This document shows, piece after piece, positions 16,765 to 62,898 of a DNA stretch of 64,000 bases. The DNA is from a virus. The notes beneath the pieces are model-generated. The model did no database searches. It was not told the DNA's origin and saw only the letters and a program-made list of their open reading frames with translations. The DNA lies in IMG/VR virus record IMGVR_UViG_3300027708_002747, positions 20,682-84,681 of that record, one strand, 5' to 3'. How positions within the stretch are numbered: the first letter of the stretch is position 1; every line of letters starts with the position of its first letter. A program made the translations under genes and the position numbers.

Positions 16765-18258
16765 ATGTCAATTCATCGTTCATATTTTAATAGAAACAAT
16801 ACAATTCAATATAACAGTTTCACAAACACTGGTAAATCACCATGGACTGAACTGTATTTTGGGTCAGCAAACGATTCTATAAGTCCATCAGGATTTAGTC
16901 GTTTTATATTTGATTTAGATTTGAGTTCATTAACTCAAAAGTTTTCTAATAAAACAATCTCAACAGGTTGTACAGGATTTTCAGGTATAACTCATACTTT
17001 AAGAATGACAAATACTTCGTCATTTGATAATGAGTTATTAAATGATACTACATCAATAGGTCGAAGAAGAGCCACCTCGTTTGATTTAATTTTATTTAGA
17101 ATACCATTAACTTCAGGTACTACAGGTAACCCACAACCTTGGGATGAAGGCGTTGGGTATGATTACTATAATGTAACAAAAACTTTAAATACATCTAACG
17201 GATTATTAACACCAATTGCCTTACCACAAGATAAGTCATCTTCCCAAAGGCCATCTAATTGGTTTCAAACTACAACATTAAGTGGATGGAGCACTAATGG
17301 AATATATAATAATACCAATGGTGGTAATGTTAATTATTCAGATTTAATTATTGTCGATACTCAACACTTTGAATTTGGTAATGAAGATATTGAGTTTAAT
17401 ATGACAAATGAAATTAATCAATACCTTACAGGTTCCACATCAGGATTTACAGGATGGGGTATTGCTTATTTACCTCAGTTAGAAAATTTGACAGGGTTAA
17501 CTGAAAATTATTCTGTTGGATTTTTTACAAGACACACACAAACATTTTATGACCCGTTTTTAGAAACAAACTATGATGATTTAGTCCAAGATGACAGAAA
17601 CTCTTTTTATTCTAATAAAAGTAATAGTTTATATCTTTATACTTACATTGATGGTGACCCAATTACGTTAGATAATTTACCAATAGTCACCATTGAAAAT
17701 AATAATGGCAATGTTGTTGGGGTCTATACATCTTGTACTAAAACTCAAGGTGTTTATGAAATAACTACTACATCAATGACTGCAACAACACCTTGTATGT
17801 TTACAGATACTTGGTCTAACTTATCATATAATAACGTTTCAATACCAAATGTTGTAAACGATTTAACATTACTACCGTATAAATTTGGATTTTCTTTGTC
17901 TCCAAATAGTAAAGAACCTGAATTATACGGTTTTGACTTTTATGGTATTAAACAAGATGAAAAAGTTTTAAATACAGATATTCGTAGAGTTGGTGTTGTA
18001 ATTAAAAAAGCATATACCTCATCACAGATATTAACACCTGTAAGTTCTTATTATAGAGTTTATGTTATGGAAGGAACAACAGAAGTTCAAGTTCAAGATT
18101 GGACACAAGTTAATAGAAGTTCCAATGAATATTATTTTGTGTTTGATACGAGAGATAAAATACCTAATGAATATAATATTGATATTAAAGTTTATTCTTC
18201 GGGAGAAGTTAATACTTATAAAAAAACACTAACATTCCAAATAGTCGACAAAAAATGA
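16765..18258 (+). CDS. Putative beta-rich virion/tail protein
   Basis: 497 aa, Ser/Thr/Asn-rich and beta-rich. The first 230 residues (SPSGFSRFIFDLDLSSL, then alternating strands) are like DNRLRE-type jelly-roll carbohydrate-binding modules, and the last 100 residues form an Ig-like region. A TATTTAT box lies at 16746-16752, 12 bases upstream. It follows the baseplate gene, so a tail-surface or fibre-attachment part is likely; no close family is recognised. Confidence 0.55.
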   Translation: MSIHRSYFNRNNTIQYNSFTNTGKSPWTELYFGSANDSISPSGFSRFIFDLDLSSLTQKFSNKTISTGCTGFSGITHTLRMTNTSSFDNELLNDTTSIGRRRATSFDLILFRIPLTSGTTGNPQPWDEGVGYDYYNVTKTLNTSNGLLTPIALPQDKSSSQRPSNWFQTTTLSGWSTNGIYNNTNGGNVNYSDLIIVDTQHFEFGNEDIEFNMTNEINQYLTGSTSGFTGWGIAYLPQLENLTGLTENYSVGFFTRHTQTFYDPFLETNYDDLVQDDRNSFYSNKSNSLYLYTYIDGDPITLDNLPIVTIENNNGNVVGVYTSCTKTQGVYEITTTSMTATTPCMFTDTWSNLSYNNVSIPNVVNDLTLLPYKFGFSLSPNSKEPELYGFDFYGIKQDEKVLNTDIRRVGVVIKKAYTSSQILTPVSSYYRVYVMEGTTEVQVQDWTQVNRSSNEYYFVFDTRDKIPNEYNIDIKVYSSGEVNTYKKTLTFQIVDKK

Positions 18259-18773
18259 AAAAAATAACACTAAAAGAAAACGAATACATTAAGTTATTAA
18301 AATTTGTTTTATCCGAAGTTTTACAACCAGGTGAAGATAAAATCGATATGATTTTAGATAAAATTAGTCAATCAGGTATGGAATCAATCACTCCTGAAGA
18401 AAAAGAAACTCTTGAAAAATTTACTAAAGGTATTTCAATAGAAGATGAGTCATCATCTAAAGATGATTTTATGGTTAAATCAGGTGGTTTTTGGTCTTTT
18501 GAATTCCCAGGTATGCCGTCATTTAAATTTAGATATGAGTCAACTCAAGATACTGAAGATGAAAAAATACATACAGGATATTTAACAGTTGATAATAGTG
18601 ATTACTACGGTGAAATTTATTGTGATACTGAAGGTAATTTTCAAACTTGTATGTTTGAAAATACGACTGAAGGAACTAATGTATTTGAAGATTATGAAGG
18701 TATTGAACACGATATTGAAGTGTTTTTAGATGTAGTCTGTAATGACCTAAAAGAAGATGATATGATTGCGTAA
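18255..18773 (+). CDS. Hypothetical protein with capsid-targeting-like leader
   Basis: 172 aa, acidic. The start MKKITLKE/N and the following VLSE/V give two (I/L)-x-E sites within 22 residues, like the leaders described in the findings. The C-terminal part (residues 75-170) looks like a compact beta domain (GFWSFEFPGMPSFKFRYES). It overlaps the previous stop and leads directly into another leader-bearing gene. Confidence 0.6.
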   Translation: MKKITLKENEYIKLLKFVLSEVLQPGEDKIDMILDKISQSGMESITPEEKETLEKFTKGISIEDESSSKDDFMVKSGGFWSFEFPGMPSFKFRYESTQDTEDEKIHTGYLTVDNSDYYGEIYCDTEGNFQTCMFENTTEGTNVFEDYEGIEHDIEVFLDVVCNDLKEDDMIA

Positions 18774-18774
18774 T

Positions 18775-19218
18775 ATGAAAAATTTAAATAACATAATTAA
18801 AAAAGTACTTAAAGAGGAAAATCAAAGATACATGTTTTTCTCTAACTTAGAACAAATGAAACGCCAATGCGAAATACTCCTTGGTAAAGATAAACAAATG
18901 ATAGAATCTATTTTAGATAATGGACATGATTGGGCTCAAGACCACATTGCAGAATCTAAAAATAATATGGACCAAGTTTTTGATTTTATAATGAATGAAA
19001 TCGAAGGTGAGGACTTTAGTAGTGATGACGCAGTTGATGTAATGTATGAAGGTCGTAAAAAAGCTGGTACTAAATTATGCGCTCGTGGTTTAGCATCGGC
19101 AAAGGCAAAATATGACGTATTTCCCTCAGCTTATAGTAATGGTCACGCTGTTCAAGTATGTAAAGGTAAAATCAAAGGTCTTGACGGAAAAAGACACTGT
19201 TCAGGAGCATATTGTTAA
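18775..19218 (+). CDS. Hypothetical protein with leader and C-terminal Cys domain
   Basis: 147 aa from the ATG at 18775, one base after the preceding TAA; the TTG at 18766 is rejected. Residues 1-14 (NNIIKKVLKE/E) form the amphipathic leader with L-K-E site. The C-terminal 50 residues (KKAGTKLCARGLASAKAKY then VCKGKIKGLDGKRHCSGAYC) form a basic Cys-containing module resembling small modules seen in other phage virion proteins. No enzymatic motif. It ends the rightward run that began at the baseplate genes. Confidence 0.6.
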   Translation: MKNLNNIIKKVLKEENQRYMFFSNLEQMKRQCEILLGKDKQMIESILDNGHDWAQDHIAESKNNMDQVFDFIMNEIEGEDFSSDDAVDVMYEGRKKAGTKLCARGLASAKAKYDVFPSAYSNGHAVQVCKGKIKGLDGKRHCSGAYC

Positions 19219-19226
19219 TCAATTAT

Positions 19227-19691: not shown

Positions 19692-19937
19692 ATGTCAAAG
19701 TTAGATACCCAAATTAAAAAAGTATTAAAAGAAATGTCAGAAGAACCAGAATACGGAAGACTTGATAGAGGTTTAGTTCAAGACGTTATTGATAGATTAC
19801 TATCAGATGAAACAGGTGGATATAAAGGAGCACTAAAAGCTTTAAATTCTGAATTTAGTACAGGACAATATTCAAGACCTGAAAGAACGTATGAACCTCT
19901 TAAGCCAGGTATTAGAGTTGGTAAAAGTATTTATTAA
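19692..19937 (+). CDS. Small protein with capsid-targeting-like leader
   Basis: 81 aa. Residues 1-14 (MSKLDTQIKKVLKE/M) are nearly the same leader as that of the protein ending at 19218, with an L-K-E site. The remaining part has no recognised fold and a basic tail with Arg-Pro-Glu repeats. It is 10 bases after the previous gene and is convergent with the next one, overlapping its end by 4 bases. Confidence 0.6.
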   Translation: MSKLDTQIKKVLKEMSEEPEYGRLDRGLVQDVIDRLLSDETGGYKGALKALNSEFSTGQYSRPERTYEPLKPGIRVGKSIY

Positions 19938-20665
19938 CCTAAAGATTTTCTAATCAAAGATATTAAGACCGATTCGTTGGTCTTTTTCTTTTTAGGTTTG
20001 TATGATGTCATCACAGGTTTTTGACCTTTACCCGTTTGAGTATCTTTTTTCTCAGCCTTTCTTTTTTGTTGACAAGCCGCCTTCTTTTGAGAATCTGACA
20101 TTTTAGACGCTACACCTACCGCCCTACATTTAGGATAACCCTTTGTATCACCTTCAGGTCTCCCACATGGTGGATGTTTACCATCTTTTTTACTACAGAT
20201 ATTAACCCACGGACCTTTAGGTTGTTTACTACCTTTTGGTTTTTTCTTAGTCCCAAACCAAACACCTAAATCTTCATTAACAATTTCTTTTTTAATTTGA
20301 TTTTTACCTAAAACTTTTTTAAGTAATTTTTTGTTAAGAGGGTTGTCATTTAAATCACTTCCGTCATCGTCATTAAGAACAGGATGTTTTTTATCGTAAT
20401 TTGAAAACTTTTTAGCAACTTTTTCTTTGGTTTTAATATTTTTAGTATCAATATTACCGTCCAATGCGTCAACATATAATTGAGCGTTATCAAATTTTTC
20501 TAACGGAACAGTAAAAGGTTCTAAAGTATTTTTATCCCATAACTTTAAACCAGGACTTAAAGGACCCCTATAAGTTCCTGAACCTGATGTTACAGTTGCC
20601 TCGTTAACCATTTCCTCGTACTCTAATAATTTTTGGAATATCTCCAAAATATTTTTACTTTCCAT
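19934..20665 (-). CDS. DUF5872-like protein with N- and C-terminal targeting-like ends
   Basis: 243 aa, very basic. The N-terminus has LLE/Y and VNE/A sites. The centre (residues 145-190) has WVNICSKKDGKHPPCGRPEG then YPKCRAVGVASKMSDSQKKAAC, a four-Cys module resembling DUF5872. The extreme C-terminus is NESVLISLIRKSLG, a short amphipathic tail like those at the ends of two other proteins here. A TATTTAT box (complement of 20693-20699) lies 27 bases upstream. Virion cargo is a reasonable inference. Confidence 0.55.
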   Translation of the reverse strand: MESKNILEIFQKLLEYEEMVNEATVTSGSGTYRGPLSPGLKLWDKNTLEPFTVPLEKFDNAQLYVDALDGNIDTKNIKTKEKVAKKFSNYDKKHPVLNDDDGSDLNDNPLNKKLLKKVLGKNQIKKEIVNEDLGVWFGTKKKPKGSKQPKGPWVNICSKKDGKHPPCGRPEGDTKGYPKCRAVGVASKMSDSQKKAACQQKRKAEKKDTQTGKGQKPVMTSYKPKKKKTNESVLISLIRKSLG

Positions 20666-21779: not shown

Positions 21780-23654
21780 TTATCTTAATTCATTCAAATC
21801 GAATGTACGAACACCATCAACGATAATACGGCCATAGAAGCGATTGTTCACCATCTTTTTCGCGTATCTCGTCATAATACCCTTAATAGGAGTAAAGTTG
21901 AATGGGTTATACATTGTTGGAGTTAATTGTAACGGTACGTATGGAGCGTAGATATATCCAGTGTCCAATAAAGAAGTACCTTTATGACCAATCAACACAG
22001 TGTTAGCTGGGAAGTATGGGTCACGGTATACTTGATAACGACCACTTAATGTACCAACTCTCTCGATACCCATGTTGAATTGGTCCTGCTCAGGAGCCGC
22101 ATTTGATACGTGGAAGTATTCCAAGTCATCAAAGATAGCACTGATTTCAGAAGATACAACAATCCAGTTTGCTCCACCTCTTAAAGTAGATTTGTGGATT
22201 TGAGCTGAAATTTGGTTGATTGCAGTAATCAACGTTTGGTTCCAGTCCTTTTGAGTGTAAGGAGTTGATTGGTTGTTCAGACGCTTCCATCCGTTGTAAT
22301 CCCAACGTAATGTCCAAGCCGCACCTTTACGTAAGTCACGTAAGATTTCACGGTCAATTTCAGCTGCAACTTGTTCAGATAATAAAGCTGTTAATTCAGC
22401 TTCAGCATCGATGTTGTGGAATGCCGCAACGTCTTGAGCAAGTTCTGGAGACCATTGTGCTCTTAATTTTCTTTCTGTAACAGATACAGTTACTGACTCA
22501 AGGTCAAAAGAAACTTCACCAATTTTGTCTTCAAATTCTAACTCTTCGTAACGTCTCCAAGCTGCTTTGATGTTAGTTAAAGAAGTAGCTCCGCTCCATT
22601 GAGATGCGGTTAATGTCGCTCCAGAATATCCATCAGGAGTTGTTTGACCACATGATATACATGCAGGAACTTGAGTATCAATTTCTAAATAGATAAATCC
22701 TGTAGTACTACAAATGTTATCATAATAACCACCATTACCACCCGATGTTGTAGTGTTAAATCCAGCTTGAGTACGTGTGTAGTTTGGACCTACAATACCT
22801 TGACCATATTTTTGAGTAACAACACGGAATAAAAGTGGTGTAAATGTTGCAGTATTTAAGTTAGAAGCTGCCGTTGAGTTATCAGTATAAAGAATTAAGT
22901 TAGCTAAAAACTCATCAGTATCTTGTTCTTGACCGTTTGGTCCGATTAACTTACCAACACCAGCATTTGAGAAACCTGATAATGCAACGATGATTTTTCT
23001 AAATTCAGCGTTAGAACCACCTACAGTGTAAGCTGAATATACAAGAGCTCCACTAGACCAAGCAACTGTTGGAGTCGCAGATGTAATTGTAAGGAAACGA
23101 CCTTTAGAGTAATCGAACAAACCTGCTGGGTTAAGACCTGGCTCAGTTCCTTCGTAGAACATATCATAAAGGTTCTTAGGTGCTGTACCAAATGGTTGAC
23201 CTGTTCCTGTATCATATCCTGAAAGAGGATTTCCAGGATAGTTACCAGGAGAACCTACTGGCGCGTAGTGGTCACCTGATGTAACACCAAGAGTGTCAAC
23301 TGCAGAACCACCTGAATAACCTTGAATCTTAGGTATGAAGTAGAACAATTTACCAATTGGTAAGTTCATAGCTTGTACCGATACAATCTCGTTAGACAAT
23401 AATTTAGAGAACACACGTCTGATGATAGGAAATACCACAGTTTCGAATGAACCTGAATCAGCTGATGATGCAGCTTCGTTAATTAAATGTGACGCTTGGT
23501 TTTCATACAATTGTGCAACATTTTCTTTTAGGTGGCCTCTAAGACCTTCTAGGAACCCTAATTTGTCCCATTTGTTTATAGTGTCTTCTTTGATAACTTT
23601 CAAGTGTTTAAGACCGATGTTACCTACTAATCCACTTTCTAATAATGCTCCCAT
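21780..23654 (-). CDS. Major capsid protein (gp23-like)
   Basis: 624 aa, the main shell subunit. The family is recognised by the N-terminal region (KWDKLGFLEGLRGHLKENVA), the VVFPIIRRVFSKLLSNEIVSVQAM block and the C-terminal MNNRFYGRIIVDGV-like block (here VNNRFYGRIIVDGVRTFDL). Residues 57-60 LINE followed by A61 form an (I/L)-x-E site exactly where T4 gp23 is cut by gp21, so the mature protein would start at A61. Local codon use is more GC-rich than in neighbouring genes, as expected for a highly expressed gene. A terminator lies 20 bases downstream. Confidence 0.92.
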   Translation of the reverse strand: MGALLESGLVGNIGLKHLKVIKEDTINKWDKLGFLEGLRGHLKENVAQLYENQASHLINEAASSADSGSFETVVFPIIRRVFSKLLSNEIVSVQAMNLPIGKLFYFIPKIQGYSGGSAVDTLGVTSGDHYAPVGSPGNYPGNPLSGYDTGTGQPFGTAPKNLYDMFYEGTEPGLNPAGLFDYSKGRFLTITSATPTVAWSSGALVYSAYTVGGSNAEFRKIIVALSGFSNAGVGKLIGPNGQEQDTDEFLANLILYTDNSTAASNLNTATFTPLLFRVVTQKYGQGIVGPNYTRTQAGFNTTTSGGNGGYYDNICSTTGFIYLEIDTQVPACISCGQTTPDGYSGATLTASQWSGATSLTNIKAAWRRYEELEFEDKIGEVSFDLESVTVSVTERKLRAQWSPELAQDVAAFHNIDAEAELTALLSEQVAAEIDREILRDLRKGAAWTLRWDYNGWKRLNNQSTPYTQKDWNQTLITAINQISAQIHKSTLRGGANWIVVSSEISAIFDDLEYFHVSNAAPEQDQFNMGIERVGTLSGRYQVYRDPYFPANTVLIGHKGTSLLDTGYIYAPYVPLQLTPTMYNPFNFTPIKGIMTRYAKKMVNNRFYGRIIVDGVRTFDLNELR

Positions 23655-23682: not shown

Positions 23683-25086
23683 TTATTTTATTATTTTTGA
23701 CATAATGTCTTTCATTCTCAAGAATTGAGGGTTCTCGTAAGTTTTAGATTCAATTAGATTAACTGCTGAACCTGACTGTGGAGATTTATCAATTACTTTT
23801 TCGATTGACTCAGTCATGAACTTTTTGGATTCTCCTCCAAGTTCTTCTTTTATTGTTCTATATAAAGCTTTAGATTCTTTAAGACTTTCTGCAGAATCAA
23901 ATCTTCTTAAAACGTTAATTTTTTCTTGCTTTGATGTAGAATGTTCAGTGAACAATCTTGTAGCATATGCTAAATTTGAATTAAATACAGCAACTTCGTT
24001 AAGTTTATCTCTAAACATATTTAGAGCTTTTCTGTATTCTTCATTTTTAACTTTTAACATTTCAAGTTCTTCAACCATAGATTCAGTGTAAAGACGTGCT
24101 TGTTTTTGTCCAGCCTGAGCTCCTTTTTTAAGTGCTCCTTCTCTCCATCCCATACCATAAGTACGAGCAGCTTCTTTAGCTTCTTCCTTAGATAATTTTG
24201 GAGTTCTTGACGGCATTTCAAAACTCTCACTTTCTTTAAATTCAAACTTAGGTTTACCTGTTCCCATAGTTGGGTTAGCACGCTTCTCAATTTTACTAAA
24301 CCCCCCTTTAGTTAAAGGAGTATTCTTATGCCATCCGTATTGTTTAGCGTCACCACCAATTTTAGCATTTTTACCAATTTTTGGTTTCATTGATGCTTTT
24401 CCTTTAGTAGTTTCTTCTTTAAACCCTTTTGAAAGTCCAACTAATTGTGCAGATTCTGTCATGTATTCTTCATCTTCTTCAGCTTCCTCATCCATTTCAA
24501 TTTCGTAAACGACTTCTTCATTTTCTTCTTCTTCTTCTTCATTAAAGTCACCCATTTCATACTCTTCCTCTTCAGATTCAGTTTGAATAAGATATTCATC
24601 TTCTTCATCTTTCAAATGAATAAAATCACCATCTTTCTTAATTTCGAAAGTGTCGGTAGGTTTCATTTCTTTAAAAGCTTTTAAAACTGTGTCCATTGAC
24701 TCGTCAGATAAATCTTGGATTCCCATAGAATCGAAGTCATCGTCACCACTCATATCAGATAAATTTGACATGTCAAACATTTCATCAGAATCTTCTTCAT
24801 CTTCAGTTTCAAATTCGTCTTCTTCCTCTTCAGATTCGTCTTCTTCAGACTCGTCTTCTAATTCAAATTCGTCTTCTTCTTCCTCAGAATCATCTTCAGA
24901 TTCCATTTCGTCTTCAACTTCAAATTCATCTTCTTCTTCAGCCTCATTTTTCATAGACTCTTTTACTAATTCGCTAATTTCTTCTTTCATTGTAGAATGA
25001 AGTATTTCTTTTGCATTTTCATTGATTGCTTCTTCCAAATTTTGTATTTGGATTAATGCTTCTTCAACTAAGTTTTTTTCTGCCAT
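23683..25086 (-). CDS. Prohead core scaffold protein (gp22-like)
   Basis: 467 aa between protease and capsid genes, as gp22 is in T4. Residues about 45-210 are an extreme Glu/Asp/Ser tract, followed by a basic middle (PKIGKNAKIGGDAKQYGWHK) and a helical C-terminus (LKVKNEEYRKALNMFRDKLNEVAVFNSN, given in two parts by its breaks) resembling the conserved end of T4-type scaffold cores. Several (I/L)-x-E-like sites occur, as expected for a protein degraded by the prohead protease. A TATTTAT box (complement of 25106-25112) is 19 bases upstream. Confidence 0.8.
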   Translation of the reverse strand: MAEKNLVEEALIQIQNLEEAINENAKEILHSTMKEEISELVKESMKNEAEEEDEFEVEDEMESEDDSEEEEDEFELEDESEEDESEEEEDEFETEDEEDSDEMFDMSNLSDMSGDDDFDSMGIQDLSDESMDTVLKAFKEMKPTDTFEIKKDGDFIHLKDEEDEYLIQTESEEEEYEMGDFNEEEEEENEEVVYEIEMDEEAEEDEEYMTESAQLVGLSKGFKEETTKGKASMKPKIGKNAKIGGDAKQYGWHKNTPLTKGGFSKIEKRANPTMGTGKPKFEFKESESFEMPSRTPKLSKEEAKEAARTYGMGWREGALKKGAQAGQKQARLYTESMVEELEMLKVKNEEYRKALNMFRDKLNEVAVFNSNLAYATRLFTEHSTSKQEKINVLRRFDSAESLKESKALYRTIKEELGGESKKFMTESIEKVIDKSPQSGSAVNLIESKTYENPQFLRMKDIMSKIIK

Positions 25087-25423: not shown

Positions 25424-26143
25424 TTATTTTCCTAAATAATCGGTAAGTCTTCCCATTAAATCAAGCGATTTGTTAACTGTTCTAGAAGCTTTTAGTTCAT
25501 TTTCTTCTTGAAGGTTCTCTTCAAACGCAAATCGACCATCAGGTTCAGTAAATAAATAAGCTCCTGGTGTTGATGGTGAGGATACCAAGTCAAAACAAAT
25601 TAATTCAAAATCGTCTTGTACTTCGTTTTGGTCACCAACTTTTTTAAGCGAACCTACCCCTCTTGATGATATACCTAACGTTACACCCAATCTTAATAGG
25701 TTTGCCGCTTGGTCACCCTTTGTTGATACGATACCTCTTTCATGGAACCCTGGAGAAGTCAAAAGTAATAGTTTACCCAATAGAACATTACCATCCCACC
25801 ACATCTCTGTAATCATGTGTGATACTCTATCTAAATCTATCAATGAAGACTCAGGGTGATTGAGTTCAGATAAAGAGGTTTTTTTACCTATATAATTTTT
25901 TATATAATTTTCAGACTCTCTCTTTAAAATTCTTTCAGGATATGTTCTACCGTTTCTATTTGGTGTATTGTATTTTTGTAGAACGGCGTAGAATTCAAAT
26001 GGTTTTGAATAATCTTTAAAATCCTTACTTTCTTGCAAGAAGGTTTGATTATTTTTTTCTGTTGGGGAAACATATCCAGCATCCATCTCAATTAAAATAC
26101 CTTTTCCTGTTTCTCTTGGACCTAATATTTTGTAATTTTGCAT
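25424..26143 (-). CDS. Prohead maturation protease (gp21-like)
   Basis: 239 aa serine protease of the T4 gp21 family, which cuts scaffold, capsid protein and internal proteins after (I/L)-x-E. Visible marks are FEFYAVLQKYNTPNRNGRTYP, LSELNHPESS with the catalytic His96, and GVTLGISSRGVGS with the catalytic Ser at 159/160. The final segment ICFDLVSSPSTPGAY is also conserved. A TATTTAT box (complement of 26159-26165) lies 15 bases upstream. Its presence gives the basis for reading the leaders of other proteins as processing signals. Confidence 0.9.
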   Translation of the reverse strand: MQNYKILGPRETGKGILIEMDAGYVSPTEKNNQTFLQESKDFKDYSKPFEFYAVLQKYNTPNRNGRTYPERILKRESENYIKNYIGKKTSLSELNHPESSLIDLDRVSHMITEMWWDGNVLLGKLLLLTSPGFHERGIVSTKGDQAANLLRLGVTLGISSRGVGSLKKVGDQNEVQDDFELICFDLVSSPSTPGAYLFTEPDGRFAFEENLQEENELKASRTVNKSLDLMGRLTDYLGK

Positions 26144-29466: not shown

Positions 29467-29537
29467 ACTAAAATATAAATACTTTTAAATTAAATTAAAG
29501 TTTAATCAAAAATATGATACATAGGTTATAGTGGTTT

Positions 29538-42265: not shown

Positions 42266-42292
42266 AAAAGGGACTTTTCAGTCCCTTTTTTT
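42266..42292. terminator. Bidirectional terminator after tmRNA
   Basis: Stem AAAAGGGACT/AGTCCCTTTT with TTTC loop and T-run, four bases after the encoded CCA and abutting the stop of the leftward M15 peptidase gene. Confidence 0.85.
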
Positions 42293-43244
42293 ATTTTATA
42301 AATCTTTTAAAGTTTTTTAGTTCTTCTGTTAAACTTACCTCTTTTTCTTCTTCTTTTTTCTTAGCTTCCTCTTCTTTTTTCTTAGCTTCCTCTTCTTTTT
42401 TCTTAGCCTCCTCTTCTTTTTCTATTTCTTTTGTAATTTCTTTAGCGGAATCAACAAATTCCGAAATTGGAATACCTAAAAACAAAGAACTACAAAACTT
42501 ATCTTTTTTTGTTACATATTTTTCACCAATATATTTAACTAAATCATTAAAGTGTTTTTCACAATCAGATTCAGTTTTTATTTCAGCTATTTTTTTAACA
42601 CCAAAATTATTTAACATTTTATTAAATTCAGAATCAATTTCTGATTGTGACATAGTCAACCATTCTGGTTCAGGTTCAGGAAATTCAAAGTTCACTAAAT
42701 CTGATGATGGGACTGAATTACAAAATTGTGAGGTGTATCTACTTTCGTCACCCTTACTCTCAGAATATGAAATATGAAAATGAACTTCTGTTGAATGTGG
42801 TGTAGGGTGTCGATACTCATCAATAAAAGTAAATCCAGGTATAGATTTTTTAGCAGCACATAAAAGAGTTGATATTTTATCCAACATTTCATCATCTGAT
42901 TTTTTAACACCTGTAAAAACTATATCATTTGCATTACCCTTATTATGTCGACTGCTTGGATAATCACTATGGAATTTATCCCTACCAGAACCAAAAGTTA
43001 TTTCTAAATCAGGCATTTCTTTTTTAAACGCTGAGGATACTTTTTTCAAAACATTTGCAAATTCAGGAGTAATATCCCCAATTTCATCTAGCGTTGGTTT
43101 AACTTTATACCCTATATTACTTAAATGTGTTCTAACACCATTAGCATTAACGTGAGTTGATTTATCAACTTCCGCTTCAAGTAAAACATTTCTTAATTTT
43201 TTAATTTCAGAAATAACTTCTTTATGACTATTAATCTTATTCAT
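42291..43244 (-). CDS. M15-like D,D/L,D-peptidase with leader
   Basis: 317 aa. Residues 1-23 end in LRNVLLE/A, a targeting-like leader. The catalytic part has GSGRDKFH, SRHNKGNANDIVF (the SxHxxGxAxD zinc site) and EVHFHIS (ExHxH), which is the M15 peptidase pattern; these enzymes cut peptidoglycan stem peptides. The C-terminus has three AKKKEEE repeats and a final SLTEELKNFKRFIK tail. With its leader it may be carried in the virion. Its promoter is shared with the divergent DnaJ-like gene. Confidence 0.78.
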   Translation of the reverse strand: MNKINSHKEVISEIKKLRNVLLEAEVDKSTHVNANGVRTHLSNIGYKVKPTLDEIGDITPEFANVLKKVSSAFKKEMPDLEITFGSGRDKFHSDYPSSRHNKGNANDIVFTGVKKSDDEMLDKISTLLCAAKKSIPGFTFIDEYRHPTPHSTEVHFHISYSESKGDESRYTSQFCNSVPSSDLVNFEFPEPEPEWLTMSQSEIDSEFNKMLNNFGVKKIAEIKTESDCEKHFNDLVKYIGEKYVTKKDKFCSSLFLGIPISEFVDSAKEITKEIEKEEEAKKKEEEAKKKEEEAKKKEEEKEVSLTEELKNFKRFIK

Positions 43245-45843: not shown

Positions 45844-47279
45844 ATTGAACTTTTTAATTTTTCAATGTAACTTTTTTTCATATCTGAAGAAGTTTCAATT
45901 GTTGTGTTTTTTAAATCTTCTAATGATTGTTTAACCTTTTGAGATATTTGATGTGTTAAATCGTCCAAAGTTGTTCTTGAGGCAGCAAGTTTAGCGATTG
46001 TGTTTCTAACAATAGTTTCCAATCCATCACCTGATGGGTCACTAATTTCAATAAAACTTTCAGGTAAAATTGATACAATTGTTTCTGAGACATACTGAGG
46101 GTCAATCATTTTTTTAGCATCTTCTTTTGGTAAATTTTTAAATGTATCACTAATTTTTTTACCAATTTCTGAATTTGGCTCAATTTGTAATTTATTTAAA
46201 ATAAATTGTATACCTTTTTCAATAAAAGTTTCTTCATGTCCTCCAAACACTGAATTAAATGCAATATCAAAATCACCTAATTCTGACTCATTTAATGTCT
46301 TTAAAACACCACCATTAAAGTAGGTGTCAAAAAATTTTCTGTATGATTCGTTGAAGAAATATTTTGAATTTTCTTTTAAACTTATTTTTTTGTTTAATTT
46401 AGATATTTTTAATTTTTCTTTAACATTTTCAGAAATTGTTTTATTTGTTTTCATTTCTTTTAATTTTTTCTTAATTTTTAGTTTTCTCTCAATTAAATGA
46501 GTAGTTACTGACTCTTGTAACGTTTGTATCCATTCATCGTACCATTTAACTCCTTCAGGTTTTGTATTCGCAATCCATTTAACAACAGGATTTTTATGTA
46601 ATCCTTTTTTGTTTTTTTCAGCCCATTTTAAATCGTTATCAATAGTTGGGTCACACAAATCCATCATTTTGCTATCTAAAAGATACTTGTATTTAGTATT
46701 AAAATTAACGACCATTTTATATGCGGCATCATCTCTTTCATCATCGGTACTATAATCATTAATAAAATAATTATCTGTTTCCCATGGATTACAATCCATT
46801 TCAAGTACACTAGGTTTTAAACTATTTGTATAAATGTCACTAATTGTATGACCCTTTAAACCTGGAAACGTGTTAGAATCATAAACATGATTCCAAACTT
46901 TTTTCATTGTTGAATTACAATAACTTAATGTTTTAGTACCTTTTTCACTTAGTTCATATTTTTTTGCAATTTCAGGAAATTGTTTGTTTACATACTTTCT
47001 AAAAATATCACCTGCTTCTGTGTCACAATCTTTAGAGTCATTACATCTAAAAACCATTCCTTCACTCGGTTTCCATTCACATCCTGTAATGTCATTTTTT
47101 TCAGGTGACGGAGATGGTTTTGGTGGAGATGGTTTTGGTTTTGTTTTACATGATGAAGGACTATAATAAAATTTTCCATCAACTTGTTTTGTTTTACAAT
47201 GTGAAAATTTTTTAATCGAATCAGGAGCGACAAGAACCCAATCACTTTGTTCTAATAATATTTTATTTATCAAATTCAT
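45840..47279 (-). CDS. Large putative internal virion protein with leader
   Basis: 479 aa. The leader MNLINKILLE/Q is followed by a Lys/Pro/Ser linker (about 48-64), then a domain with several Cys (CEWKPSEGMVFRCNDSKDCD) that may hold disulfides, and a long helical, charged C-terminal half from residue 260 on. No family recognised. It is the last of three large leftward genes with leaders, which suggests that they act together. Confidence 0.6.
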   Translation of the reverse strand: MNLINKILLEQSDWVLVAPDSIKKFSHCKTKQVDGKFYYSPSSCKTKPKPSPPKPSPSPEKNDITGCEWKPSEGMVFRCNDSKDCDTEAGDIFRKYVNKQFPEIAKKYELSEKGTKTLSYCNSTMKKVWNHVYDSNTFPGLKGHTISDIYTNSLKPSVLEMDCNPWETDNYFINDYSTDDERDDAAYKMVVNFNTKYKYLLDSKMMDLCDPTIDNDLKWAEKNKKGLHKNPVVKWIANTKPEGVKWYDEWIQTLQESVTTHLIERKLKIKKKLKEMKTNKTISENVKEKLKISKLNKKISLKENSKYFFNESYRKFFDTYFNGGVLKTLNESELGDFDIAFNSVFGGHEETFIEKGIQFILNKLQIEPNSEIGKKISDTFKNLPKEDAKKMIDPQYVSETIVSILPESFIEISDPSGDGLETIVRNTIAKLAASRTTLDDLTHQISQKVKQSLEDLKNTTIETSSDMKKSYIEKLKSSI

Positions 47280-47285
47280 ATATAA

Positions 47286-49745
47286 TTAGTATGGTATAAA
47301 TGTATTATTTTTATATATAAAATTAACTATTGTTTTATTTGTATCATCATTTTTATAAGCAGTTCCGACACCTGTTTCATTATATGGGGTTGCAATCGTA
47401 TAACCATTTATTCTTGCCCAATTTTCAAATCCTTTTGGTGTACCGTCAATTTTATTTAATTCTTTCTCCGCCATTTTTTGTTTTCTTTTGTTCATTAAAC
47501 AATTATACATATTAACTTCTGCCGACTTACCATTTTTATCGACAAAACAATAATCTTCTTGTAACATCTTGTCATATTTTTTCTTCGTTGCGTCAATCTG
47601 TTTCATTAATTCATTTAGAGCGATTGTTTTTGCTTCTGGAACACCACCCCCACCAATCATAACACGCCAAATTTTATCACTCCAAAACTTTATATCATCT
47701 ACGTAAGTTTCTGTAACTATACCGGCCATATCTAAACCTGCTCGAATAAGTGTTGGTCGATACGATGCTTCAATTTCGTCCGGATTTGGAGCAACATATA
47801 ACTGTTGAAGTAAGTCATTTATTTCTTTGCATTCTTCATCAGTTCCGATTTTTTCAATAGTTTCACCATCCACAACAGTTGGTTCACAAATTAATTTTTT
47901 AAAGTCCTCAAAGTTTTTAAGAGCTTCAAGTCTTTGAGAATTTTCTAAACCACCAGTACCCAAAGACGCTAACCAAGGATATGCTAAAGTAGTCCAAACC
48001 AAAAGTTTAAACCCTCTCTCAAAATATATTCCTGACCTACCACCTAACGCAAATATTTTTCTATAAACATCAACACTGTTAGGACTTGTTGTTAATGCAA
48101 ACCTTCCCCAACTTTTAAGGAAATCACCAAAAAAATAACTTCCAACCTTTAATTTGTTTACTTTTCCTTCAGTTAAAAATAATTCTTTCCATCTGTTTAT
48201 ATTTAATATTCCTGTCATTTCTCCATAACCTCTAAACATTATTTTTACCGCCTTACCAAAGTTTTTTTGGAAATCCACACTAAGTGAATCGGCCAGTTCT
48301 TTAAATTCAGGTGATTCAATAAGTCTTTTAAATTCAACACTTTCTTTTTCTAAACCATATGATAAAAGATTATTTTCTAACCAGCTTGCCGCAGATTTAC
48401 CTGATATGTCACTTTTGTTTAATAAAACCATTAAATTTCTTATAGTATCAAAATTACCGGAAATAGTTTTTGGACCCTTTTCGTCACCGATTATTTTTTT
48501 CGCCATTAATTGTACTTCCCTATCTAATCTTTGATATAGTTCTTCTAATGTACCATACGGTGTCATTAGTTTTATTCTAGTTATAACATTCTCTAAAAAG
48601 TACTTAAGGAAATTTGGACCTTCCAATGACCCAAAAGTTTTTAAACCTTCTATCGCTTTTTGTAAACCTTCAATTTTATCAAAAGGTAACTTACTCGCCA
48701 ATTTATACACTTTAGCAATATTTTCAAATTCTTTTGTCAATATTTCGTCTACAATATTATAATCAAAATCAGAAATTTCTTCTTTAACGACTGAATCCCA
48801 CTCTTTATTTTTTGAAGTTTTTGACATAATTGATTTTAAAAACCCAGGTAGATTTACTTCACCCGCAGAATTAACATAACCTAATTTTTTTAATAAATTT
48901 TTAAAATATTCATTTACAAATTCTGAATTTTTTTTAAGTGCTGGAATTATTTTACTTAATAAACTTTCTGGTAAATCGTTAAATGCTATTTTTTTATCAA
49001 TAAATTTTTTTAGTTGTTCAAACTCTTGAACAGTAAATGTAGTTCCATTACTCAATATATCAGTACTACCTCTAATTGGTCCGTAATTAGTTAAAAATAA
49101 GTCATTAATTTTATCACGTAAGAAATTTCTATTTTGAGTTATAAATTTAACAGTATCAATATTATTAGGTAAATCATTTAGTTTAAAAACATCAATTAAT
49201 ATTTTTTTATATTCTTCATCAACACCTTTTAAATTATTAATCTCTTTTTTAAGTTTTTTTAATGCGTTTAAAGTATCTTGATATAAAACAGCATCTTTTT
49301 TTGCTACTGTAGTAGTTAGTTTAGTAACTAATGTTGAACATTCATCCGCTAACTCAGATAAATCAGGATATATTTGACGTAATGTTCCTCTCATTACCGT
49401 TTCAATTTCTTTTCTTAAAGTAACATCAGAGTTTTTAATTAAATTCTTAAACATTTCTTCAAGAGGTACCTCATTCAAAATATCATCTCCCCACTTTTCA
49501 TACTTAATTGCACTAATAATCTTATTAACTAAATTAGTTTCAACAGATTCGCTACTAGCCGATAATAAACTTTCTCTAACTGTTCTCCCAAGTTTTTGTA
49601 AGTCCATATTTTTTAGAGCGTCAATATCAAAAAGATTTTTTAATATTTTTTGAGTTAAACTTTTTGGTAGACTAACTTCCAAAATTAATGTTAATCCCAT
49701 TATTTCTCTAACTCTATTAACTTCGTTTAATAATTGTGTTTTCAT
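47286..49745 (-). CDS. Very large putative internal virion protein with leader
   Basis: 819 aa from ATG 49745; the ATG at 49751 is part of a TATTTAT box (complement of 49750-49756), so the second ATG is preferred. Leader MKTQLLNE/V with a second site LILE/V at residue 23. The body is mostly helical; hydrophobic segment at about 590-620 (LLVWTTLAYPWLASLG) could insert in a membrane. No enzyme motif seen. Its features (large, helical, leader, membrane-like patch) are those of proteins ejected with DNA in other phages; this is inference. Confidence 0.6.
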   Translation of the reverse strand: MKTQLLNEVNRVREIMGLTLILEVSLPKSLTQKILKNLFDIDALKNMDLQKLGRTVRESLLSASSESVETNLVNKIISAIKYEKWGDDILNEVPLEEMFKNLIKNSDVTLRKEIETVMRGTLRQIYPDLSELADECSTLVTKLTTTVAKKDAVLYQDTLNALKKLKKEINNLKGVDEEYKKILIDVFKLNDLPNNIDTVKFITQNRNFLRDKINDLFLTNYGPIRGSTDILSNGTTFTVQEFEQLKKFIDKKIAFNDLPESLLSKIIPALKKNSEFVNEYFKNLLKKLGYVNSAGEVNLPGFLKSIMSKTSKNKEWDSVVKEEISDFDYNIVDEILTKEFENIAKVYKLASKLPFDKIEGLQKAIEGLKTFGSLEGPNFLKYFLENVITRIKLMTPYGTLEELYQRLDREVQLMAKKIIGDEKGPKTISGNFDTIRNLMVLLNKSDISGKSAASWLENNLLSYGLEKESVEFKRLIESPEFKELADSLSVDFQKNFGKAVKIMFRGYGEMTGILNINRWKELFLTEGKVNKLKVGSYFFGDFLKSWGRFALTTSPNSVDVYRKIFALGGRSGIYFERGFKLLVWTTLAYPWLASLGTGGLENSQRLEALKNFEDFKKLICEPTVVDGETIEKIGTDEECKEINDLLQQLYVAPNPDEIEASYRPTLIRAGLDMAGIVTETYVDDIKFWSDKIWRVMIGGGGVPEAKTIALNELMKQIDATKKKYDKMLQEDYCFVDKNGKSAEVNMYNCLMNKRKQKMAEKELNKIDGTPKGFENWARINGYTIATPYNETGVGTAYKNDDTNKTIVNFIYKNNTFIPY

Positions 49746-52700: not shown

Positions 52701-52814
52701 TTGTTGTTCTGTTAATATTTTAACTTTTGAAATATTTTCAGACAAAGTTTCCTTATTATCGTATTTCATCAATAACAAAACTCTTTCCAATAATTCTTGT
52801 TGTTTCTTTTCCAT
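49767..52814 (-). CDS. Giant multi-domain putative virion protein with leader
   Basis: 1015 aa, the largest gene here. Leader sites at LSE/N (residue 26) and LTE/Q (36). Residues about 290-345 (SSVTNLQMALVELGYLKQKD, then DGYIENYICLL) look like a degenerate peptidoglycan-binding domain. Residues about 730-800 hold hydrophobic helices (VMGGVLLASLVFPPLFMAVG, then ELAIVARISVDAGLNIYSAY). The C-terminus is a coiled coil (INEVKELNRRIDELNKQIES). It may contact the cell wall and membrane during DNA entry. Its stop is 15 bases before the next gene of the same set. Confidence 0.6.
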   Translation of the reverse strand: MEKKQQELLERVLLLMKYDNKETLSENISKVKILTEQQDPNKVPKNQYDKDAIKNCKMQPRNYDWFVPRTKETVDKFCNSLQLNYPSFYSKTPITNNTNPQTTPKPKVLTKEELRKYSIDQLIKLYESNSSEGEARVSINTNKDKIITVFAEKISEMNYDDLIKLLKNNKVFRDSLYFSDSPTGSSIQQPRSKKSFKGNVKVLGPFVVLLDYEIFERKIGEYNKNPKQFNYQPPIKPNWKDLTLKFPSLTYLTQYQYSPTQYLTNIKQKEQGLVGYTKKGYPTYVKENTESSVTNLQMALVELGYLKQKDVVRERGVNTSYPWHDSLRDYLKSGNYNFAEALGLTPNNPKLDGYIENYICLLKTYRVCKGSTINEENMPAYKFFKTNKHDWVEPFLSFLRANAYPNVPADEWLYETGQTPKEQQEKFEQGVNNSKFLKISIYDVDGKIIPIYSRGDDPDLPSYSIGNIQKNINQVISGKNEDSGFKPQIINLGPIFSILNDEQVNTLVNWLTEWCTEPFEFDGIKGRQIVTKGGSGLNFDFDLYSKFPNFVKDLVENESLYPNCVVDFANKETNGDVGKWMIKFLKLPEEQIDLLLQFYPEDYDLIQTYLPGAPGSKDFYLNNPLVKNAVKMHIFMNPGFLGTLSDALGGGYKTIDKIPDSLVELTLKKLLECPGMYKELQSIAAGQREYKGYIVGQYYSSLPSGYVKYTIPCPDEWWDENGWKIVMGGVLLASLVFPPLFMAVGWELELAIVARISVDAGLNIYSAYRNKMAGNEEAAKIDMACAVLSFIVDTPGFEKKFLSGFGDWAEISVFNKLKKANPNTGKKLNNFVRSLTDVERRHLYDIINTPRFTRQIQVYGKEIMDRWLKQQFGSQWKNIAVKILKEVGVKVPIVFSPVMLNMGYNMFIYANQVSQDIFNVELDETKWKAFEWELNNRGINTPEEADNFFENILSSNKKEQKIFLENVGKKIFGEQTKKIKEQLSDEKLDKLINEVKELNRRIDELNKQIESNIED

Positions 52815-55825: not shown

Positions 55826-56446
55826 ATGAAATATATAATTAAAGAATCTCAAAAGCAAATTATCCTTGAAACAATAAATGATAGGATTAAAGAAGTTCAA
55901 GAAGATGGTGTTGAACTAACAAAAAAGATTGTAGAAGACACTAAAACTCACGTTTCAATAAACTTAAAGATGATGCTCACATGGGGAGCGGCAATCGGAG
56001 GGTTTATGGGCCCAATTATGCAATGGTTAAATGGACAGGTACCTGAGTTAACAGAAAAAGATTCATCATTAATTGCTGCCGGTATTGCGTCAGTAATATT
56101 CTTTCAAGAAAGAAGTTTTACCAAATCAATTATTAAAAAGATTAAAGAAGACGGACTTGAAGAATCATTTAAATTGGGGGCAATTAAAGCCAATCAACTT
56201 AAAACTGTTTTGGCAGGTTTTTTAAAGAGTTTGAATTTATCTGCGTTCAGTGTAACAAATATGTTAAGTTACGCATTCTTGGTTCCAATCATACCAATGA
56301 TATACGACGCTATCTCTGAAGGTATATGGGATATGAAAGATACTGAAATGTTAGTTAAATCATTATCAGCGTTTGGATTAATAACAATTTCAGGTAATTT
56401 CTTAAAACGACTTATGGATTTAATCGTTGACAGGATTACTAAATAA
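55826..56446 (+). CDS. Membrane protein with capsid-targeting-like leader
   Basis: 206 aa. Leader MKYIIKE/S with a second site IILE/T (residue 15). Membrane segments at about 50-70 (MLTWGAAIGGFMGPIMQWL), 85-100 (LIAAGIASVIFF), 145-170 (LSAFSVTNMLSYAFLVPIIP) and 180-195. A holin-like or membrane-pore role is possible; with its leader it could also be delivered from the virion. Not recognised by family. Confidence 0.6.
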   Translation: MKYIIKESQKQIILETINDRIKEVQEDGVELTKKIVEDTKTHVSINLKMMLTWGAAIGGFMGPIMQWLNGQVPELTEKDSSLIAAGIASVIFFQERSFTKSIIKKIKEDGLEESFKLGAIKANQLKTVLAGFLKSLNLSAFSVTNMLSYAFLVPIIPMIYDAISEGIWDMKDTEMLVKSLSAFGLITISGNFLKRLMDLIVDRITK

Positions 56447-56706: not shown

Positions 56707-57306
56707 TTACCAAAATCCTGGATAAGTTTTACCGCCCCAGAGGTAACCAAAGCGATTGAGTCTACATGCCCAGTACCCCGCAGTTAATCTGTCTTTCTTT
56801 TTAGAACACTGATGTCTAGCCGCAAATGATTTACGAGCTTTAGGATTAGATACCTTAGCAGTTAAACCACCATGAACATCACCAAATGAAATTTTCTTAA
56901 CTCTACCTGTTGATGGGTTTTTAACATAGACAACATATTTCTTACCACCACCACTATTTCTTCTTGGTTTACCGAGTTCAACTTTCTTTCCGTTATACTC
57001 AGCTTCAGAGATAAATGTTTCTTCCATTGGAGTATCCAAATAAACTACTCTACCATTTGATAATCTAACCTGTGTTCCAAAATCAGATTCAACAAGTTCA
57101 ACATCATCTTCATTTAATTCAACCATTCCTTCGTAATATAACTCACGTGCTTCTTGAATAACGTTAAAGAATTCCTCAGAACCAAATCTGAAGATATTAT
57201 CATTTAATGGTACATCATTTGTTATATGATAATTAAGGTGTTCCGAGATAAGTGGTTTTTCCACTGATTCTGTAAGAACTTTTTTGATAAGTTTTTTGAT
57301 ATTCAT
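56707..57306 (-). CDS. Basic protein with leader and C-terminal Cys domain
   Basis: 199 aa. Leader MNIKKLIKKVLTE/S, nearly the same as those at 18775 and 19692, with a second site LISE/H (22). The last 85 residues are basic: KYVVYVKNPSTGRVKKISFG, KARKSFAARHQCSKKKDRLT and AGYWACRLNRFGYLW, a module often seen in T4-like phage virion proteins. No enzyme motif. Confidence 0.65.
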   Translation of the reverse strand: MNIKKLIKKVLTESVEKPLISEHLNYHITNDVPLNDNIFRFGSEEFFNVIQEARELYYEGMVELNEDDVELVESDFGTQVRLSNGRVVYLDTPMEETFISEAEYNGKKVELGKPRRNSGGGKKYVVYVKNPSTGRVKKISFGDVHGGLTAKVSNPKARKSFAARHQCSKKKDRLTAGYWACRLNRFGYLWGGKTYPGFW

Positions 57307-57506
57307 TTTTTACTTCGTAATAAGAAATACAACCCAAAGAACAATGCTGAAGTACAATAGAAAATTCCTGTGGTAATCCAATAAGAACTTGTGTAATCTA
57401 AGATTGCTTTGAACATTATGTCGAATCCTAGTGGATTGAAAAACATTGCGAGCATAAGGCAATAAGTGGCAACATTTTCCTTTAGAATTCGTTTCATTTT
57501 CGTCAT
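57303..57506 (-). CDS. Small two-helix membrane protein with leader
   Basis: 67 aa. MTKMKRILKE/N leader followed by two hydrophobic helices (about 12-30 and 44-62) and a basic RSKK end. Topology is holin-like, and a lysozyme is encoded 5 kb away, but the leader argues against a plain holin. Overlaps the next gene by 4 bases. Confidence 0.55.
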   Translation of the reverse strand: MTKMKRILKENVATYCLMLAMFFNPLGFDIMFKAILDYTSSYWITTGIFYCTSALFFGLYFLLRSKK

Positions 57507-58096: not shown

Positions 58097-58717
58097 TTAA
58101 GCTTTACAAACTCCTGGAAATTTAGCTAATTGTTCTTTAAGCGCTCTTTTAGTTGCGGCTTGTAATGCTTTTTTTCCATTTTCAGCACTATTATTTCCAA
58201 AATACTTGTATAAGTAATCTAAATCTTCGGGCTTATATTTTCCATCTTTAAATCTCCATTCAGCCCCACTAACATTTGCGTCAATATTACATGTACCATT
58301 ACATAAACATTTAGTATTAAGACTTTCGTCGGCAGCAATTGATGTTAAATAATATCTAATAAAATCAAATGCCATTGACTCAGCATTATGTTTTGGATTT
58401 TCTCCACCCCCACCACCGGTTATATTTGGTTCAGATTGAGGTCTTAAACCAATAATTGCCAATGAGGATTTACTAATTGTTGGTGTGTTAGGCCACCCAA
58501 CAAACTTATTTAATGAAGTTTCGTCTTTAATTATTTCAGGTAAATAATATGTTTTACCATTTGACGTAAAACCTGCTGTAGATGTTATGGATGCTGGGGG
58601 TTGTCTTTGATTTTGTTGAACTGGTTGTTCACTTAAATAATTCTTTTTGGTTGCACTTTCATGCATTTCCAATATTCTTTGTTTTTCTTCTAAAGAAATT
58701 TCAAATAGTTTTTTCAT
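58097..58717 (-). CDS. Hypothetical protein with leader
   Basis: 206 aa from ATG 58717; an upstream in-frame ATG at 58744 touches the TATTTAT box (complement of 58735-58741). The leader has ISLEEKQRILE/M and, at residue 30, LSE/Q. A Gln/Pro-rich linker follows, and the C-terminal half has four Cys (CLCNGTC and the end) and a KRALKEQLAKFPGVCKA tail. Not recognised. Confidence 0.6.
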   Translation of the reverse strand: MKKLFEISLEEKQRILEMHESATKKNYLSEQPVQQNQRQPPASITSTAGFTSNGKTYYLPEIIKDETSLNKFVGWPNTPTISKSSLAIIGLRPQSEPNITGGGGGENPKHNAESMAFDFIRYYLTSIAADESLNTKCLCNGTCNIDANVSGAEWRFKDGKYKPEDLDYLYKYFGNNSAENGKKALQAATKRALKEQLAKFPGVCKA

Positions 58718-60752: not shown

Positions 60753-60755
60753 ATT

Positions 60756-61109: not shown

Positions 61110-61120
61110 TATTTATTATT

Positions 61121-61816: not shown

Positions 61817-62130
61817 TAAACCTGAATAGTTCTTTGTGGTCTGTCATCACCAAAGTCAGGACAGAAATAAGTATTGTTACCGTCGTGATAAATTGTTCCA
61901 CCAACTCCATTAGGAATTTTGTGTGTTTCATGGAATTTTTCATCCAAGTCAATTTGGTGATTTCCATCATGAATGATAAAACATAAGTTTTCATAACCAC
62001 ACTTATATTGTTGGTCTTTGTTCTTATGTTTCATAAACTCGTCAAAAGACATTACATATCTTGCATCTTCGTTAAGGTATCTTTTAACGATAAATTCTAA
62101 TTGGTTCTCTGTGATAATAAACTTTTTCAT
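61813..62130 (-). CDS. Small protein with capsid-targeting-like leader
   Basis: 105 aa. MKKFIITE/N and a second site RYLNE/D at residue 21. The body is beta-rich with several His/Asp (CFIIHDGNHQIDLDEKFH). Not recognised. A TATTTAT box (complement of 62136-62142) is 5 bases upstream. Confidence 0.6.
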   Translation of the reverse strand: MKKFIITENQLEFIVKRYLNEDARYVMSFDEFMKHKNKDQQYKCGYENLCFIIHDGNHQIDLDEKFHETHKIPNGVGGTIYHDGNNTYFCPDFGDDRPQRTIQVY

Positions 62131-62148
62131 ATTCTATAAATATAAGGG

Positions 62149-62898
62149 TTAAGAATAAATTCCTTGACTATAAATCTTCCATTCTTTTTGTCTTCTATCA
62201 GGATGAGTAAAATCTAAAAAATTAGATTTAACACCATTCAAAGAATTTGGATTAGTTTTTAAAGAATTACTTAATTTTGGAGCTTTTGTTGTACAACCTG
62301 CAAATCCAACTTGATAACATAATGACGATAATGCATCAACTTGATTTTGATTCAAATTAGGATACAAATTTAGTAACTTATTTGCTAATTTATCTAAGTT
62401 TGTTTTTAAAAATACTTTAGCTTTATCTTTTGTTATTGATGGGTCTTTAGGTGTTACTTTTCTACCATCAGGATAATAAACCGTACCATAACCAATTGTG
62501 GGTGTTCCTGATGGTGTTTTACCTTTTAAACAACAATCAACTTCACCCCTAACACATTTCCCACCTTTAGCATCATCATAAACACAAGGAACAAAAAACT
62601 CAATATTACCAACAAAATTAACAAGTTTGTCTGAAACACCTGTAGGTTTTTGAATACTCTTTGGTGTTTTTGTTCTTATCATCTTAAGTGCATTATCAAT
62701 AACACCTCCTGATTCTGGTTTTATTTGGTCTTTTGGTGGAGCCATAGAAGACCATTTATCCATAAAATTTGGTTCTTGGTTTGAAGGTTTATATCCCGCA
62801 ATTTTATTAATATCATCAAAAACTGATTGCTCATTAATATTTGGATTTAAACCCATCATTGATTTTATCTTACTAACTTCAGTTAATAAATTTCTCAT
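62149..62898 (-). CDS. GH24-like lysozyme with leader
   Basis: 249 aa. Residues 1-23 contain MRNLLTE/V and NINE/Q. The GH24 lysozyme domain spans about 85-249: NIEFFVPCVYDDA (catalytic Glu), GTPTIGYGTVY and NQNQVDALSSLCYQVG are its marks. Cys residues (CCLKGK, CTTK) may form disulfides, so it is probably built to work outside the cytoplasm. It has no signal peptide. A leader plus lysozyme suggests a virion-borne enzyme rather than a classical endolysin. Two TATTTAT boxes precede it (complement of 62903-62909 and 62917-62923). Confidence 0.78.
   Translation of the reverse strand: MRNLLTEVSKIKSMMGLNPNINEQSVFDDINKIAGYKPSNQEPNFMDKWSSMAPPKDQIKPESGGVIDNALKMIRTKTPKSIQKPTGVSDKLVNFVGNIEFFVPCVYDDAKGGKCVRGEVDCCLKGKTPSGTPTIGYGTVYYPDGRKVTPKDPSITKDKAKVFLKTNLDKLANKLLNLYPNLNQNQVDALSSLCYQVGFAGCTTKAPKLSNSLKTNPNSLNGVKSNFLDFTHPDRRQKEWKIYSQGIYS

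Follow-up and report, generated by a model that had tools for sequence, protein, structure and literature searches.

Recurring terminal leaders with a conserved (I/L/V)-x-E end on unrelated proteins of a T4-like phage: probable capsid-targeting propeptides

Many proteins encoded in a 64,000-nucleotide stretch of IMG/VR virus record IMGVR_UViG_3300027708_002747 begin with a short basic leader that ends in an (I/L/V)-x-E motif, and the bodies behind these leaders are unrelated. The stretch (hereafter the window, to which positions refer) spans bases 20682–84681 of the 84,681-bp record, a fragment of a T4-like phage from a group of large T4-like phages with predicted Bacteroidota hosts. Here we show that the leaders form recurrent classes, lie at protein termini, retain a conserved Glu, precede unrelated bodies and are linked to the S77 prohead protease. 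They are probably propeptides that target proteins to the capsid as in T4, but in this group of phages they have greatly multiplied and become modular. A sequence-only reading of the window had listed 16 such N-termini and proposed capsid targeting followed by proteolytic removal. At the level of sequence comparison this proposal is supported: its N-terminal leaders are real, while the leader classes and the C-terminal and internal versions had escaped it.

Results

Recurrent leader classes on unrelated bodies

All 16 listed N-termini are present in the sequence. When leaders are defined mechanically, by an (I/L)xE at residues 9–32 preceded by net basic residues, 30 of the 102 proteins of the record have a leader-like N-terminus, compared with 9.9±2.7 for internal windows of the same proteins and 13.6±3.4 for shuffled N-termini. 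T4, P-SSM2, Mel-JY01, RM378 and most Bacteroidota phages without S77 gave counts near their own nulls, phi38:1 lying somewhat above. Thus, given the internal-window null and the near-null outgroups, the N-terminal excess is real.

The leaders are far more regular in several larger relatives (related records are given G or L handles), where three consensus sequences emerge: (i) class 1, MKKIIRLTESDLxRIVKRVIxE; (ii) class 2, MKKLYxLxESEKxRILxLHExxTKxQYLxxEQ; and (iii) class 3, MKxxLLxEINRxKxLMGLxxxLNEQ. Hidden Markov models (HMMs) of these classes, built from relatives and partly from genomes that were later counted, were searched over the whole proteins of 28 records and gave 75, 30 and 11 matches, of which 71, 29 and 10 were N-terminal (110 of 116 overall); since the sequences are related, these are non-independent events, and several relatives are fragments. 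E-values were as low as 1e-19. The independent controls were shuffled proteins, with 0, 0 and 1 matches, and outgroup phages, with no match in T4, P-SSM2, RM378, Mel-JY01, immuto, phi38:1, phi17:2, phi14:2, phi18:3 and crAss001. One outcome named by the sequence-only reading as refuting it was an equally common motif in unrelated phages without a gp21-like protease; five Bacteroidota phages without S77 gave 0 matches.

A motif-free test, comparing N-terminal 30-mers among proteins with unrelated bodies, found 80 pairs in G049 versus 1 with mid-protein segments, 74 versus 3 in G021, 33 versus 1 in G001 and 42 versus 2 in G028; it also recovered the known T4 IPII/IPIII pair. The present record yielded 0 pairs at that threshold, and its leaders were recognised via relatives. 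As with capsid targeting sequences (CTS), a short N-terminal peptide is common to different bodies: the 108 leader proteins of relatives fall into 77 body families (BLAST, E 1e-3), including 65 singletons. Class-1 leaders are amphipathic (moment 0.76 versus 0.49 for all N-termini).

The leaders of the window

Because the bare motif also arises by chance, each listed protein was compared with orthologues or with the leader HMMs. Fourteen were supported in this way; those starting at 54405 and 57506 were not. Gene starts were assigned with a simple gene caller; 33955 is better placed at 33946, and 18775 is preferred over a TTG at 18766. The tags, with a slash at the predicted cut, and the two unsupported cases are:

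18255..18317 (+), class-1 leader MKKITLKENEYIKLLKFVLSE/V of the 18255–18773 protein (DUF6576 body, Pfam); class-1 HMM E 2.1e-9
18775..18816 (+), short class-1 leader MKNLNNIIKKVLKE/E on 18775–19218; 50 body orthologues
19692..19733 (+), short class-1 leader MSKLDTQIKKVLKE/M on 19692–19937; 6 close orthologues only
20600..20665 (-), N-terminal leader MESKNILEIFQKLLEYEEMVNE/A of 19934–20665; orthologue family described below
19937..19972 (-), C-terminal tag NE/SVLISLIRKSLG of 19934–20665; mirror tag in orthologues, AlphaFold2 helix 231–242
33899..33946 (-), leader MKKEQLVKRLISRINE/A of 32648–33946, a gene adjoining the terminase; E16 invariant
43176..43244 (-), leader MNKINSHKEVISEIKKLRNVLLE/A of 42291–43244 (M15-like by motif only); one orthologue only, IFEE/E in G049
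47250..47279 (-), short leader MNLINKILLE/Q of 45840–47279; relatives begin MKKIILE/Q, MKNIIILE/K and MKKNIKE/Q
49677..49745 (-), class-3 leader MKTQLLNEVNRVREIMGLTLILE/V of 47286–49745; class-3 HMM E 2.2e-13
52707..52814 (-), class-3-like leader MEKKQQELLERVLLLMKYDNKETLSENISKVKILTE/Q of 49767–52814; like leader type in G001, G021, G007 and G049
55826..55870 (+), leader MKYIIKESQKQIILE/T of 55826–56446; orthologues MKIIITESQKKILLIE/S and MKIVITESQKRRILLE/S
57268..57306 (-), short class-1 leader MNIKKLIKKVLTE/S of 56707–57306 (phrog_7595 body); orthologues MKNINLLVKKILKE/A, KKVLRE/S and KKVLKE/S
58628..58717 (-), class-2 leader MKKLFEISLEEKQRILEMHESATKKNYLSE/Q of 58097–58717; class-2 HMM E 3.7e-18
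62068..62130 (-), class-1 leader MKKFIITENQLEFIVKRYLNE/D of 61813–62130; class-1 HMM E 2.2e-10, kept in G049 and G001
62830..62898 (-), class-3 leader MRNLLTEVSKIKSMMGLNPNINE/Q of the phage lysozyme 62149–62898; class-3 HMM E 1.2e-15, PF00959
53947..54405 (-), not supported as an N-terminal leader; site missing in G007, G010 and G021 orthologues
57303..57506 (-), not supported as a leader; G001 and G021 orthologues without Glu at the site

In two proteins the cut had probably been misplaced. The TLKE/N proposed for 18255 is the first Glu of a class-1 leader, which is also invariant, and the site at the leader end is FVLSE/V, where orthologues keep xE at the equal place; in 20665 conservation falls on MVNE/A instead of KLLE/Y. 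Orthologues of the 18775 protein switch between full and short class-1 leaders, with the Glu kept in nearly all. Few or no orthologues were found among the compared genomes for 43244, 19692, 49745 (none for its body) and 58717, of which 49745 and 58717 are supported by the HMMs. As to the bodies, the lysozyme was confirmed by PF00959, and the M15 identity of 42291–43244 was abandoned: the protein shows the motif only, with no Pfam match and no useful PDB match, and its G049 homologue carries an Amidase_2 domain. A further leader lies outside the window, at L002:10306–10707 (MKLYNILKKVIVE/A).

The site is kept while the leader drifts

Two orthologue families combine a hypervariable leader with a conserved (I/L/V)xE end. 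The N-terminal stretch of the 20665 family varies in length and sequence, and P3 is I, L or V in 44 of the 44 N-termini used; this P3 position was outside the selection pattern, the body-side Glu itself inside it. In a general alignment of the family, E22 is nearly invariant. E16 of the 32648–33946 family is among only 14 invariant columns, in an alignment whose sequences fall to 23% identity. Even very short leaders, down to MEQQLNE, retain the site. The AlphaFold2 model of the 19934–20665 protein, of low confidence (pLDDT 55), has a helix 5–22 ending at E22, and that of 32648–33946 a detached low-confidence helix 2–15 ending at E16, followed by a confident folded body from about residue 25; a PDB fold search with the latter model gave no match (best E 0.48).

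The window encodes a head module of T4-like type on the (-) strand:

21780..23654 (-), major capsid protein gp23; site LINE/A at residue 60
23683..25086 (-), acidic protein between the protease and capsid genes, by position a probable scaffold or core protein; conserved xE sites
25424..26143 (-), gp21-type prohead protease (S77); PF03420 E 9.9e-28
26699–26884 (+), ribosomal protein S21 (bS21) gene inside the module, opposite to it; PF01165
27613–29466 (-), portal
30837–32582 (-), terminase

Both the gp21-like protease and the capsid LINE/A had been recognised in the sequence-only reading and were borne out: the protease scores 92.5 bits with Pfam Peptidase_S77 (curated cut-off 27), and the residue-60 column holds [ILVMF]xE in 99% of 80 sequences. 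In the probable scaffold, xE sites at residues 364, 381, 404, 426 and 446 are kept in 99% of 70 sequences. Leader ends and the capsid LINE/A are alike in P3–P1 chemistry; as a sequence pattern, the L/I-x-E end of the leaders matches the motif of the S77 protease that the phage itself encodes. The equal position, the capsid-like P3–P1 chemistry, the unrelated bodies and the conserved Glu fit capsid targeting with proteolytic removal.

Leaders accompany the S77 protease in IMG/VR

IMG/VR was searched with a DNA pattern for class 1, and 50 large records among the matches listed were tested for S77, which was found in 24 of the 50, in 16 of 18 at >=100 kb and in 13 of 13 at >=145 kb. Controls were few: S77 occurred in 1 of 25 and 0 of 23 records in two sets, the second of them AT-rich and added because the first, random set was prophage-heavy, and in 0 of 11 at >=100 kb (Fisher 2e-6). 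One control 18-mer gave no matches. Why do some leader records lack S77? Among the matches listed, 25 of the 26 S77-negative records also lack the gp23 capsid gene, and the 24 positives compare with about 22 expected if all records were fragments of ~250-kb S77 genomes. The two largest negatives, G032 and G028, have 110 of 120 and 78 of 150 proteins in common with clade members and, judged by this content, are fragments of the same clade. The class-1 pattern had one match in 257 Gb of bacterial and archaeal genomes; this lone match (L478:1436–1730) lies on a 3.2 kb contig of a metagenome-assembled genome labelled Alphaproteobacteria.

C-terminal tags and an internal junction

Scored with a matrix trained on N-terminal leaders only, the class-3 core is ~15 times commoner at C-termini than inside proteins (e.g., LNEEIERIKNLIK). 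The class-1 core showed no clear C-terminal excess (1 match at threshold 14); a full class-1 motif, RLTESDLVRLVKKIINE, is found at the C-terminus of one 20665-family protein (L010). The 42291–43244 protein ends in SLTE/ELKNFKRFIK. A trade-off between a long N-terminal and a C-terminal tag in the 20665 family was considered and rejected (Fisher p 0.76).

The site also occurs between domains. A single G049 protein reads class-3 leader-PPK2-NINE/Q-lysozyme (L304:8908–10692; G049 28908–30695), G001 encodes a class-3 leader-PPK2 ending in TNE/NS (L089:2325–3434), and the window protein 62149–62898 reads leader-NINE/Q-lysozyme, with the same NINE/Q as in G049. Because PPK2 and lysozyme are fused in G049 and split in G001 and the window, the site marks the junction of separable pieces, at one locus in three records. 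The leader-bearing PPK2 is possibly a virion-borne energy enzyme.

Genome setting

The S21 gene on the other strand inside the head module ties the phage to the bS21-encoding large myophages of freshwater Bacteroidota, which are described with the same arrangement (PMC9723584) and are likely the same phage group. The nearest cultivated capsid relative, Flavobacterium phage immuto, is distant (41.6% identity). Immuto has a shared leader of its own, FDLKKFLVENKLTxNSxLLxE, on four proteins (L084–L087; positions 1803, 103806, 117631 and 118632); as it is cultivated, the idea is testable in the laboratory.

tmRNA (transfer-messenger RNA) genes are uncommon in phage genomes; the window has a full-length one at 41867–42261 (+) (Rfam E 5.1e-49; predicted tag peptide AKLSTLGLIRTEEVTVA). 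It also encodes a ClpB/ClpA-type AAA ATPase at 37787–39850 (+) (AAA_2 E 1.2e-68) and a class II tRNA-synthetase-like protein at 63096–63920 (+) (PF00152, E 2.1e-12), and a P-SSM2 protein begins similarly to the latter. Record bases 1–33000 (window -20680 to 12700) hold a long gene run that, judged by eye, reads like glycosyltransferases and sugar enzymes.

Discussion

How might these leaders work? We infer binding to the prohead core, import, cleavage and ejection of the cargo. The tag, a short basic amphipathic helix at the N- or C-terminus, would bind the core during assembly and bring its cargo inside; the S77 protease would then cut after (I/L/V)-x-E, as in the capsid protein, freeing the cargo into the maturing head, and in one relative a cut between domains would split the fused PPK2-lysozyme. 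Ejected along with the DNA, the cargo would equip the earliest phase of infection with peptidoglycan hydrolases, one or more enzymes of energy metabolism and many uncharacterised proteins.

Several points weigh against this scheme. Very short leaders such as MEQQLNE and MTNKINE cannot be targeting helices, which would leave another recruitment route or a relict site only. The first Glu of class 1 could be a helix cap and not a cut site. A generic test for C-terminal basic helices was positive for the present record (14 versus 5.5±2.2) and mildly positive too in T4 (15 versus 8.0) and some other controls, so that only the sequence-specific class-3 result is retained. Finally, virion proteomics for this clade was not found in the literature searched, and a text search of papers for the leader letters returned nothing relevant.

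Alternatively, the tags may attach to the prohead, or to some other part of the virion, and never be removed, the glutamates belonging to the binding helix. The invariant first Glu of class 1 (LTE-S), at a helix-cap place, would suit such an arrangement; we nevertheless regard it as unlikely, because the end Glu with its aliphatic P3 persists where the helix has shrunk to 7–10 residues (MEQQLNE/D, MAKKKLQE/A) and because the same site recurs at the boundary of PPK2 and lysozyme, remote from the leader.

The leaders could also send proteins elsewhere, for example to the tail or baseplate or to the host envelope. Few leader proteins have a known domain, and these are mostly peptidoglycan-active (PG_binding_1 in six, VanY plus M23, phage lysozyme, GH19), with PPK2 in two and WYL in one. 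The 92 genome-matched proteins lacking a leader mainly have domains of nucleotide and sugar metabolism, portal, protease, methyltransferases and HNH nucleases, with no peptidoglycan-related family among the 25 of 68 Pfam families listed. That peptidoglycan-active domains are common among the annotated cargo would fit destinations of this kind. However, most cargo has no wall-related domain, the leaders are strongly linked to S77 and to the cleavage motif of the capsid protein and are absent from the tested phages without this protease, and they lack the hydrophobic core of a Sec signal peptide (class-1 mean maximal 10-residue Kyte-Doolittle 0.72, highest 1.82). A destination outside the head therefore seems quite improbable.

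Could the common N-termini simply be left over from duplicated genes and shuffled domains, and play no part in targeting? Many leader genes are indeed clustered, a feature that also counts in favour of the targeting scheme: all 18 HMM-detected ones in G049 lie within 0–80 kb (109 genes), against 0 of the 141 genes in the other 160 kb. But the bodies are unrelated, orthologues with the same body may carry different leader classes, and the site persists where the remaining leader has diverged, which makes such an origin very improbable. Chance occurrence of a motif as short as (I/L)xE, to which two of the 16 listed proteins may be owed, is barely credible and already contradicted by the three-fold excess over internal windows and by the HMM E-values.

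If the leaders are capsid-targeting propeptides, they allow packaged, and probably ejected, unknown proteins to be predicted from sequence in large Bacteroidota phages, 18 of them by HMM alone in the largest close relative. Many unannotated proteins would thereby gain a likely location and timing, with a pointer to early-infection effectors; the leaders would further offer tags with which foreign proteins could be put into phage heads, and a way to test how protein delivery evolved among T4-like phages. Interchangeable tags on dozens of unrelated proteins suggest a far larger head protein load, and more trimming, than in T4. More tentatively, and with real doubt on our side, there might be a general head-loading code in which a few swappable helical N- or C-terminal tags and domain-separating cut sites place dozens of proteins in each virion, including a set of peptidoglycan hydrolases and a polyphosphate kinase that would enter the host together with the DNA to serve the first minutes of infection.

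Comparison with known systems

In T4, IPI, IPII, IPIII and Alt carry CTS that are cut by gp21 (PMC9026906). The leaders resemble these in being short N-terminal propeptides with an L/I-X-E site, accompanied by an S77 protease and followed by unrelated mature bodies, and T4 Alt is processed at its C-terminus as well (PMC9026906), where this clade too has tags. T4 has about four cargo proteins, propeptides of ~10–20 residues and a 10-residue CTS, MKTYQEFIxE (PMC9026906), whereas the leaders here comprise at least three helical classes of ~10–36 residues, occur on 14 supported proteins within a single 64 kb window, and have copies at C-termini and at an internal junction. The leader HMMs have no match in T4, the T4 CTS included; the leaders thus seem CTS-like in their working rather than in their sequence.

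The bS21 myophage paper makes no mention of leaders or cargo in its available part (PMC9723584). In phiKZ and SPN3US, as here, a gp21-related protease, a Glu-ending cut motif and propeptides on several head proteins, ejected ones among them, are reported in the available parts of the papers (PMC10052503, PMC7411985); these parts differ in giving nine substrates, propeptides mostly of 111–254 residues and the motif A-X-E, and describe no recurring short tag. The P1 Dar proteins likewise differ in that their N-termini have no consensus and no common cut motif is given (PMC9024508). As with the leaders proposed here, the N-terminal 30 residues of P1 DarB, a large antirestriction protein, send a reporter to the capsid (PMC9024508). 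Precedents for the individual steps exist, then, in T4, P1 and SPN3US.

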